From a virus, in the IMG/VR virus record IMGVR_UViG_3300008267_000319, positions 1 through 25,859 of that record: DNA of 25,859 nt; one strand, given 5' to 3'. Below, piece after piece: positions 2,818-11,542 of this stretch (position 1 is its first letter; each line of letters starts with the position of its first letter). The translations under genes were made by a program, and so were the position numbers. The notes under the pieces were generated by a model. The model worked only from the letters and a program-made list of their open reading frames with translations, did no database searches and was not told the DNA's origin.

Positions 2818-3207
2818 TTATTTTACAAAAAATGTGATATAATATGAATTTAAATATATCATTGTAAACCATTTAACATCAGATAGTTTAGATGCACAAA
2901 TCTGTATTTCTACACGCTTGTTTTGTTCATCTATTCCTATGTAATCAAGACAGCGGTATTCACTATCATTTGTTTCTCCTGTTTTTTCCAGAAGCTTATA
3001 CTCTGATCTTGCTTCATTGGATATTAAGATTTTGTCATCTTTGAGAAATATTGACATGTTGCCCCCATCTTCTTTCTTATAAAACTCATATTCATCTAAA
3101 CTGGGTTTGTATATATATGACGCAGTTTCTAGGACTCTAAACTTAGTAATATCTTGTGCAGATGCACAATTAATACTAAACAACAGTAAAAATAATAACT
3201 TTTTCAT
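2818..3207 (-). CDS. Secreted or periplasmic protein, 129 aa
   Basis: The N-terminus is a clear signal peptide: Lys-Lys, a hydrophobic Leu/Phe core, and a cleavage site of the A-S-A/Q type near residues 15-18. The mature part of about 110 residues is mostly beta with two Cys that could form a disulphide (RCLDYIGID and IQICASK). The product should therefore act outside the cytoplasm, in the periplasm or the envelope of the host. No domain was recognised. Superinfection exclusion or envelope modification is a reasonable but unproven role. Confidence 0.65.
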   Translation of the reverse strand: MKKLLFLLLFSINCASAQDITKFRVLETASYIYKPSLDEYEFYKKEDGGNMSIFLKDDKILISNEARSEYKLLEKTGETNDSEYRCLDYIGIDEQNKRVEIQICASKLSDVKWFTMIYLNSYYITFFVK

Positions 3208-3227
3208 TTAATTTATTAAAGGATGAT

Positions 3228-3258
3228 AAAAAAACCTCCCAAGTAGAAACAAGGGAGG
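3228..3258 (-). terminator. Intrinsic terminator downstream of the tmRNA
   Basis: On the minus strand CCTCCC pairs with GGGAGG around a 12-nt loop and is followed by seven T. It sits 42 bases beyond the 3' end of the tmRNA, so it probably ends that transcript. Confidence 0.85.
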
Positions 3259-3299
3259 GTGTACCTGAGCTAAAACATCTCTGTGAGACAATCTTAATG

Positions 3300-3812
3300 T
3301 GGAGGTGAGGGGAGTCGAACCCCTGTGTCTACATCAATCTGTACCACCATTTTTACATGCTTAGTACTGTGTTACCACTGCACCGTAGTTTGTACTGAGG
3401 GTATGAACAGGTCACGTAATAACGTGTCGACCAGACAATCCTCTGCACCCTAAATTGGGAACTAACTAGTGGACCACAAGCTGCAGTCACCAGCTCCACC
3501 ACCTGGTTTATTAGTATAACTCCAGGAAACTATTACTTGCTATCTTTTTACATCATATAGTCTTGGATGGTCAGTGTCTGAGGAAGACCCTCAGTCTTTA
3601 CTGCTGTTCTGTTGCTAGGCTATCAGCTGCCCCACCAATGCTAGGCTACTTCGAGCTCAGCACCCTCAAGTTCTGCGAACAGAGACTCAAGAGTATAATT
3701 GGAAAGTTCAACAGTTGTGTTGTCCTTTAAATTTTAATCAGTCTGTTTGGTCACTGACTAGACCTTGCATGTGATGTTACCTCTTGAGTGTAGGTCAATG
3801 CCTGGCACCCCC
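3300..3812 (-). ncRNA. ssrA: tmRNA (transfer-messenger RNA)
   Basis: A one-piece tmRNA of about 513 nt releases ribosomes stalled on broken mRNA and tags the product for proteolysis. The 5' GGGGGTG pairs with the 3' CACCTCC (7 bp, one G.U) with discriminator A. The T-arm is AGGGG-TTCGACT-CCCCT. The conserved ACTAAGCATGTA block precedes it, as in bacterial tmRNAs, and a D-like segment GGCATTGAC follows the acceptor. Pseudoknot 1 is clear: GGTC/GACC, with loop TAGTCAGT pairing with ACTGATTA. Further hairpins (CTGAGG/CCTCAG and CACGT/ACGTG) fit the other pseudoknots. The tag frame most likely runs from about 3724 to the TAG at 3641-3643 and ends in AELEGAELEVA. CCA is not encoded. SmpB is not visible in the window, so the host protein is probably used. 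Confidence 0.88.
3641..3724 (-). other. Tag reading frame inside the tmRNA
   Basis: This open frame begins about 13 nt after pseudoknot 1, the usual distance to the resume codon, and ends at a TAG. It encodes about 27 residues, rich in Glu and Leu, with C-terminus ELEVA. Bacteroidota tags known to me are short, of the GENNYALAA type. The exact resume codon cannot be fixed by eye; a GCA 11 codons before the stop, preceded by TGTTC, is an alternative. The other two frames end early or give a hydrophobic basic peptide. Confidence 0.55.
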
Positions 3813-3823
3813 ATTAAAGTCTA

Positions 3824-3913
3824 CAGCACACCAGATAAGGGTCCTACGCTACTAAACTAACCCAAAATTGTTAATAATTTTGGTTTGGTTAATAAATCCT
3901 CGCTGGTGTACTG
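3824..3913 (-). ncRNA. Structured RNA leader just 5' of the tmRNA
   Basis: An 11-bp arm (CAGTACACCAG with CTGGTGTGCTG on the minus strand) encloses about 68 nt with an inner perfect hairpin CCAAAATT/AATTTTGG at 3862-3883. The single non-Watson-Crick pair of the outer arm is U.G in minus-strand RNA but would be C-A in plus-strand RNA, which favours a minus-strand transcript. It ends 12 nt before the tmRNA. It may be the tmRNA precursor leader or a separate small RNA. It does not fold as a tRNA. Confidence 0.45.
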
Positions 3914-3963
3914 TAAAACTTTAGCTTTTATGAATCCTTTTCTTTTACAAATATAGTGAAATA

Positions 3964-4653
3964 TTACAAATCAATAGGAATTTTTTCATCACACACCCAA
4001 TCTGCAGGCATAGGATCATCATCTAGGTCTAAATTAGGAATAGGAGTCTTTAATTTGCGGATGTATTGAATCTCAGAAAAGTTATCTGTTATTTCACCAT
4101 CTACTACATCAAATACCCAGCTGTATTTCTTGCCAAATTTTTCAGAACACTCTGCACCATAAAAATAGTCTTGACATAAAAAAAGACTACTATTTGGGGT
4201 TATGCACAAGATTGCTTCTACATCTCCTCCTTTAAAGTCTGGATTAGAAGAATAGTTTGGTGGTATATTAATTATAACAGTTTCTCCATGTTCAAATGTA
4301 TCTTCACCTATTGTAATTGTCATGGGAGCTTTAGTTTTAGGAGTTCTTTTCTTTGGGGTTTTCTCACCATCTGCAAGTTGAAGATTTTTGACTGAACTGT
4401 CTATTTTACCATTTTTTACATGAAATGCCCAGCTATATTTATAACCTAATTTATCTTCAGATATAGCACCATCCTTTTTATTTTGACAAATAAAACATCT
4501 AATAAGTTCCTCTTCAATTTCTCCAGCAACATAGATTTTACCATCAGTTACTTTGGCTTTAACCTCAATTCTATCTTGATCAGTTAGTTCACATGTTACT
4601 TTATCGCCTGTTTTATATACAATGCCATCAATAGTTACAGTTTTCTTTTCCAT
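3964..4653 (-). CDS. Protein with two tandem copies of one domain, 229 aa
   Basis: The protein is an internal duplication. Copy 1 covers about residues 1-93 and copy 2 about residues 109-195. A Lys/Pro/Thr linker (EKTPKKRTPKTKAP) joins them. Both copies start with a short beta hairpin (TVTIDGIVYKTGDKV and TITIGEDTFEHGETV) and carry a Cys segment (FICQN and FLCQD). Both end with LGYKYSWAFHVKNGKI or FGKKYSWVFDVVDGEI. The C-terminal 30 residues are acidic. I do not recognise the family. The beta-rich repeat could be a small binding fold. A terminator-like hairpin lies upstream and the tmRNA locus downstream. Confidence 0.7.
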   Translation of the reverse strand: MEKKTVTIDGIVYKTGDKVTCELTDQDRIEVKAKVTDGKIYVAGEIEEELIRCFICQNKKDGAISEDKLGYKYSWAFHVKNGKIDSSVKNLQLADGEKTPKKRTPKTKAPMTITIGEDTFEHGETVIINIPPNYSSNPDFKGGDVEAILCITPNSSLFLCQDYFYGAECSEKFGKKYSWVFDVVDGEITDNFSEIQYIRKLKTPIPNLDLDDDPMPADWVCDEKIPIDL

Positions 4654-10882: not shown

Positions 10883-11542
10883 ATGAAAGAACCAAACAGA
10901 GAACGTAAGAATGAAATTAAATACGATATTACGCTAAATGATGAGCAGAAAGAAGCTAAAAGAGTTATTAGAGAGAATCAAATCGTGGTTATCACTGGGA
11001 GGGCGGGATGTGGTAAGAGTCTTGTATCAGCACAGACAGCACTGGATTTTCTCTTCAAAAAAGAATGCGAACAGGTCTTAGTAACCAGGGCAGCTGTAGA
11101 AGTGGGTCATTCTCTAGGGTTTCTACCAGGGTCTTTGGATGAGAAGTTCAACCCCTATCTAGAGGCGTTTATGGAAAACCTCACCAAGTGCTACGATAAG
11201 AACAAGATACAGAATCTAATATCAGAACAAAAGGTGATGGCTCTACCTGTACAGTTTATCAGAGGTAAGACCATAGATGATGTGCTTGTAGTGGAAGAAG
11301 CCCAGAATCTGACAAAGTCAGAGATGCTAGCCATCCTCACCAGGCTGGGAAAGACAGGGAAGATTATTATTAATGGGGACAATGAACAGACTGACATCAT
11401 CACCAGAAATGGTGAGATGAATGGTCTTTCTTACGTTATAGAACTATCAAAGAAGATTAGGGAGATACAGTGGGTGAAGCTAAGTCACAACCACCGATCA
11501 GACCTAGTGGGGAAAATACTAGACTACGAATATGGTAAATAG
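10883..11542 (+). CDS. PhoH-like ATPase
   Basis: This 219-aa protein is a PhoH-family P-loop ATPase. Walker A GRAGCGKS is at 39-46 and Walker B DDVLVVEEAQ at about 132-141. The family segment GDNEQTD is at about 165-171. The C-terminal SHNHRSDLV is the conserved late motif of the family. PhoH-like proteins are very common in phages, with proposed roles in RNA handling or phosphate stress, none firmly established for phages. The length is typical for the phage form without extra domains. It is the first gene of the plus arm and is closed by a terminator, so it is its own unit. Confidence 0.9.
   Translation: MKEPNRERKNEIKYDITLNDEQKEAKRVIRENQIVVITGRAGCGKSLVSAQTALDFLFKKECEQVLVTRAAVEVGHSLGFLPGSLDEKFNPYLEAFMENLTKCYDKNKIQNLISEQKVMALPVQFIRGKTIDDVLVVEEAQNLTKSEMLAILTRLGKTGKIIINGDNEQTDIITRNGEMNGLSYVIELSKKIREIQWVKLSHNHRSDLVGKILDYEYGK

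Follow-up and report, generated by a model that had tools for sequence, protein, structure and literature searches.

The window, by which we mean the whole stretch of 25,859 bases analysed here, carries a one-piece tmRNA gene (ssrA) on the minus strand at positions 3300–3812, with the mature 5' G1 at 3812 and the discriminator A73 at 3300. It lies between genes for a 229-aa protein (3964–4653) and a 129-aa protein (2818–3207), and it was assigned from its match to Rfam model RF00023, its acceptor stem (7/7 pairs) and its syntenic homologs. Comparison of positions 3200–3970 (771 bases) with RF00023 by cmscan gave a match at 3297–3812 of the minus strand, covering model positions 1–374 of 374, with 42.3 bits (E=2e-15), slightly below the model's gathering score of 47 bits; a window-wide Rfam search at the gathering threshold did not recover the tmRNA, and ARAGORN called none in the window. 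Scores of the relatives described below range from 45 to 91 bits. That the RNA gene is a tmRNA is close to certain. The first-pass annotation had placed a tmRNA at exactly these coordinates, and the acceptor, T-arm, ACTAAGCATGTA block and 8-bp pseudoknot stem that it read there were confirmed; the check it proposed, with Infernal/Rfam and ARAGORN, bore it out in the end-to-end alignment and its E-value, but not in the bit score or in ARAGORN.

The acceptor stem is formed by GGGGGUG (3806–3812) and CACCUCC (3301–3307), the latter followed by A73 at 3300 with no encoded CCA, and it covaries across the 65 relatives. It includes a G3-U70 pair, the signal read by alanyl-tRNA synthetase. The T-arm (AGGGG-UUCGACU-CCCCU, 3308–3324) has all five pairs and a stem that covaries among relatives, and the ACTAAGCATGTA block at 3354–3365, read in the sequence and aligned in the RF00023 match, is the 3' strand of helix 2. 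Pseudoknot 1 (3735–3764) consists of a 4-bp stem 1 (GGUC/GACC, 3764–3761 with 3752–3749) and an 8-bp stem 2 (UAGUCAGU/ACUGAUUA, 3760–3753 with 3742–3735) that includes one G-U pair; compensatory changes are found in the relatives. Pseudoknots 2–4 align poorly to the model, and the 3' half is enlarged. The tag reading frame (3641–3724) runs for 27 codons from GAC to GCC, is followed by a TAG stop and encodes DNTTVELSNYTLESLFAELEGAELEVA; purifying selection is seen in this frame alone. Its resume codon GAC follows UUUAAAG, which places an A four bases upstream of the G, in keeping with the A86 rule of E. coli tmRNA (PMC2481249).

Further elements flank the gene, all on the minus strand. An intrinsic terminator-like hairpin (CCUCCC...GGGAGG plus U7, 3228–3258; -13.3 kcal/mol, z -2.8) sits 42–72 bases 3' of the tmRNA, and the related loci L064, L007, L044 and L004 have a comparable hairpin and U-run with a stem sequence different from that of the window. 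A structured leader hairpin (3813–3925; -38.1 kcal/mol, z -5.4) abuts the 5' end; it is missing in the closest relative, L003/L064, and in L007 and L044 its position is taken by a long hairpin of unlike sequence. The sequence TATATTTG at 3948–3955 weakly resembles the Bacteroidota -7 box TAnnTTTG and is present near and upstream of the tmRNA in L064 too, and a scan for sigma-70 promoters gave scores hardly above those of shuffled sequences.

The IMG/VR contig that forms the window comes from a crAss-like phage, as judged from matches of its terminase, portal and major capsid proteins to PHROG families. The terminase is about 25% identical to those of crAss-like phages of Bacteroides, Flavobacterium and Cellulophaga. 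The closest public relative of the major capsid protein is that of Leptolyngbya phage Lbo-JY46 (30% identity), and relatives of this protein are encoded on at least 600 IMG/VR stretches. We considered the cyanobacterial host that the Leptolyngbya phage would suggest and rejected it, the identity being only 30% and that phage having no full tmRNA match. Metagenome-assembled genome (MAG) bins holding related phage contigs are assigned to Chitinophagaceae, Bacteroidia and Bacteroidales, and also to Campylobacteraceae, Pseudomonadales and Patescibacteria. Reassignment of TAG, which would prolong the tag, was likewise rejected: long genes of the window, the portal gene included, terminate at TAG, TGA and TAA, so the genetic code is standard. 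The sole tRNA gene of the window is a tRNA-Leu (UAA) at 311–397 on the minus strand.

Relatives and conservation of the RNA

Of 22 viral contigs linked to the window by its neighbouring AAA-ATPase gene, eight have RF00023 matches above the cut-off. With the addition of IMG/VR pattern scans the collection comprises 76 distinct tmRNA genes, 65 of which encode long tags; most of the others are of prophage type or come from MAG chromosomes and have ordinary tags (e.g. ANDSNYSLAA, GEAMPLAA). In L003, L007, L044 and L009 the gene order around the tmRNA, with the AAA-ATPase gene block, is that of the window. Not every crAss-like phage has the tmRNA, though it is common in the group: only a minority of the near-complete records searched have a clear match. 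One locus, L242, has a tmRNA-like 3' fragment at a contig end beside an integrase-like frame, possibly a prophage attachment site.

The G3-U70 pair is present in all 65 long-tag genes, and pairs 4–7 are of various Watson-Crick types, giving 12 different acceptor sequences. Seven standard acceptor pairs were required at extraction, so full pairing follows from the selection itself. The variety of pairs and the constant G-U do not, as G-U over G-C at position 3 was not a criterion. An A at -4 and a Gnn resume codon (GAC, GCA, GGC, GCT or GTA) are likewise found in 65/65, the A at -4 being a search criterion and the agreement with ARAGORN tags being independent of it. In the window's clade (five distinct relatives) stem 2 of pseudoknot 1 is 100% paired and 96.7% of cells are paired overall; four of the 12 pairs have changed on both sides, with a covariation score of 0.400 versus 0.163 in shuffles, and with the partner strand slid by 1–3 bases no more than 45% are paired.

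Long tags are present in both crAss-like and T4-like phages. The window's type of major capsid protein is encoded in 5 of 43 tmRNA-linked records at 82–86% identity, with a distant form (about 25%) in three, and the T4-like capsid protein Gp23 in 6 of 44. One Gp23 record (L322/L416, 174 kb) has a major capsid protein 53% identical to that of Flavobacterium phage immuto, and no long-tag tmRNA was found in immuto itself. A PhoH-like protein of the window (10883–11542) is 73% identical to one of the T4-like record (L416:178–879), which indicates that genes have passed between the crAss-like and T4-like lineages and that the two probably had hosts in common. Against 50,697 phage records, BLAST with two of the tmRNAs and with three tags returned nothing; with a third tmRNA, the matches were confined to other tmRNAs at their conserved 3' end.

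Composition and conservation of the extended tags

The 65 long tags have 23–28 residues and fall into four classes: class I (DEMSTMTFDDLMAFVGADYALAA), class II (the window type), class III (AMTQSERVAEGEAILASIFGEVAVAA) and class IV (DNTISRQEEGARIINMAFANVEMAVAA). In profile comparisons class II is the partner of class I (E about 8e-5) and class IV that of class III (E about 1e-7), the profiles being very short. Net charge is -4 to -7 in classes I and II and -3 to +2 in classes III and IV. A C-terminal AA is kept in classes III and IV and in nearly all of class I; it is missing from the window's class, in which the tags end in LELA, LEVA, LALA or AVLA. The window tag itself ends in LEVA, lacking the hydrophobic-A-A end typical of ClpXP tags.

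Compared with the one-piece tmRNA of Bacteroidota (RF00023, GENNYALAA-like tag), the window gene has in common the tRNA-like domain (TLD) with G3-U70, pseudoknot 1, the A at -4, ACTAAGCATGTA in helix 2 and the tag stop, but its tag has 27 codons rather than 9–10 and no C-terminal AA, its 3' half is enlarged and remodelled, and it is 513 nt long versus about 350–400. Among the Bacteroidota genomes sampled with ARAGORN, 48 of 50 tags are of 9–10 residues ending in AA, and the two exceptions appear to be frame errors.

The tag frame is constrained at the protein level. Relatives compared in 19 non-overlapping pairs show 96 synonymous against 85 nonsynonymous changes, where a ratio of about 3:1 in favour of nonsynonymous changes would be expected (binomial p about 1e-17); pS is 0.288 and pN 0.078, and pN/pS is 0.27 in this frame, compared with 1.15 and 2.51 in the other two. 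The differences are distributed 48/21/112 over codon positions 1/2/3, a three-base period that is not explained by RNA structure alone. Between the window tag and its neighbours pS is 0.33–0.48 and pN 0.07–0.21 (0.48 and 0.07 against L048). These values make it very likely that the tag is translated and selected as a peptide. An amphipathic helix in the tag was considered and dropped, the hydrophobic moment being no better than that of shuffled tags, and an origin by copying from a phage protein was rejected, as HMMs of the tag classes run against 16,537 six-frame ORFs found no convincing protein besides the tmRNA loci.

The first-pass annotation had described a long acidic tag of about 27 residues, unlike the short tags of Bacteroidota. 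Its length and its distinctness hold, purifying selection supports its coding nature, and its acidity extends to class I but not to classes III and IV. Conservation of the pairings and of the tag frame in related phages, set beforehand as the test that could refute the tmRNA, was found in the 65 relatives, in the covariation of pseudoknot 1 and in the low pN/pS. At the level of sequence comparison, these data show a complete one-piece tmRNA of a crAss-like phage, within a phage family with protein-conserved tags of 23–28 codons. Phage tmRNA is already known and the conserved extended tag appears to be the new part; in the openly searchable literature, no paper was found that describes such a family of extended tags.

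Possible fates of the tagged products

The question of why phages carry tmRNA genes becomes testable with a tag that is long, differs from those of the Bacteroidota sampled, is conserved as protein and is common to unrelated phage lineages, features which together argue that the phage must depend on the tag peptide as such. Long, protein-conserved tags across phages suggest that phages alter the fate of stalled protein products.

During infection, host alanyl-tRNA synthetase would charge the phage tmRNA with alanine via G3-U70, and host SmpB and EF-Tu would deliver it. SmpB was found in none of the 65 phage records (control genomes were positive), so the host protein is presumably used, and we consider the use of host SmpB and alanyl-tRNA synthetase probable. 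Some huge phages are reported to carry SmpB besides tmRNA (PMC7162821). The phage tmRNA would free ribosomes stalled on broken mRNAs, and the stalled product would receive an extended, phage-specific degron. In most classes the tag end (ALAA, AVAA) would retain an ordinary C-terminal signal, and the conserved extension ahead of it would be read by a second factor, either an adaptor or another protease. The window's class has lost the AA (LEVA), which makes handling by something other than ClpXP more likely.

Lon is the obvious candidate for the second factor, by analogy with Mesoplasma florum, whose tag has 27 residues and which is, to our knowledge, the only known precedent of a long tag with another reader. 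The long ssrA tag of M. florum is degraded by Lon, according to the account of Gur and Sauer (2008) given in PMC8138137. This tag is unusual in length and sequence and sets a precedent for a protease switch, but its likeness to the window tag is one of length only, and M. florum has lost ClpXP, no such loss being known for the window phage. A Lon-type protease gene was found in 0/32 phage records, so the second factor would be a host protein or an unrecognised phage protein.

We favour, at roughly 0.55, a host-served tmRNA that would add a phage degron read by a second factor. A different protease fate of the products, which the first-pass annotation had suggested, is plausible: we put a tag effect on how, or how fast, proteolysis proceeds at a little under even odds. 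With an ordinary AA end in most tag classes, the extension need not alter the protease. A broader proposal, in which a mobile tmRNA family is common to crAss-like and T4-like phages of aquatic origin and its conserved tags re-route stalled nascent chains from the host's normal ssrA-ClpXP pathway to another protease or adaptor, is offered tentatively; if true, phages rewrite the output code of trans-translation. Long tags would in addition offer new natural degron sequences.

The most credible alternative, though one we think somewhat improbable, is an ordinary phage tmRNA that supplements host rescue during mRNA breakage by phage or host nucleases, with ClpXP still degrading the products and the extension improving this without a new route, for example as a longer unstructured handle. 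The AA ends of classes III, IV and nearly all of class I fit such a role, and so do the phage tmRNAs already recorded, in huge phages (PMC7162821) and in 402 of 18,146 phage genomes, for which maintenance of hijacked machinery or recycling of host proteins has been proposed (PMC9004378). A plain handle, however, needs no conserved sequence, whereas the extension is under purifying selection and conserved across phage lineages, and the window class has lost the AA end. It is unlikely that the tag is host-derived, captured or mimicked by phages from an unsampled host clade with the same long tag. The genomes sampled represent the phylum of one Bacteroidota MAG, which leaves room for such a clade, but the sampled tags are short (9–10 aa in 48/50), the class I motif occurs in 0/396 Bacteroidota genomes versus 23 phage loci found with the identical pattern, and the phages hold four different classes.

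Two further explanations fare worse. A decoy that titrates SmpB or charged alanine and thereby shuts off host trans-translation would match what has been suggested for the TLD-only RNA of mycobacteriophage DS6A; a TLD-only molecule inhibits tmRNA (PMC4131195), and TLD-only-like matches occur in two huge phages, but a decoy would not need the full-length gene, intact resume context and selected tag frame seen here, and we regard it as very improbable. Decay of the window copy into a functionless remnant is the least credible of all: its score under the Rfam cut-off and the silence of ARAGORN would fit, but every acceptor, T-arm and pseudoknot 1 pair is intact, the tag frame is intact with low pN/pS versus its neighbours, and the close relative L003 likewise fails ARAGORN with all features kept. 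The long-tag family would also show that standard tools (ARAGORN, the Rfam cut-off) overlook or misinterpret some phage tmRNAs.

tmRNA genes of other phages

Lists of phages with tmRNA genes go back to at least 2014, and the mycobacteriophages Bxz1 and Wildcat, Bacillus phage G, huge phages and the marine phage Melnitz also encode them. In Wildcat the tmRNA is the most highly expressed lytic gene (PMC7474061). The genes of Melnitz and cyanophages are two-piece (permuted), unlike the one-piece gene of the window. The gut crAss-like Burzaovirus phages cr7_1 and cr124_1 (L263, L264) have RefSeq-annotated tmRNAs at about 2236–2592 of the minus strand, but these are permuted two-piece genes (RF04321, 63–66 bits) with an ARAGORN tag of 13 aa and a layout unrelated to that of the window. 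Maribacter phage Panino (L434:27590–27798), a candidate for a cultured long-tag phage, was rejected as its tmRNA is permuted too. These three permuted genes score 62–66 bits with RF04321 and belong to phages of Bacteroidota or presumed Bacteroidota hosts, whereas the sampled Bacteroidota chromosomes have one-piece genes.

A 484-kb phage (L425, LR756508.1, 92434–92880) has a tmRNA with a 36-codon frame, GVNNADYESAGFTAEDFAQMDGESLYHGSERKPAAV, in a good resume context (UAACU followed by GGC), for which ARAGORN gives another tag. Huge-phage loci L429 and L430 (LR756508.1, LR756511.1) have tmRNA-like matches of 112–137 bases that are TLD-like, almost without an mRNA part, and reminiscent of mycobacteriophage DS6A. 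Permuted tmRNAs that lack an annotation are present in cyanophages S-SSM7 and S-CAM1 (L422, L423); ARAGORN reads their tags as 31 and 21 residues long, with AANNIVAFSR in both, and longer tags may thus occur in cyanophages as well.
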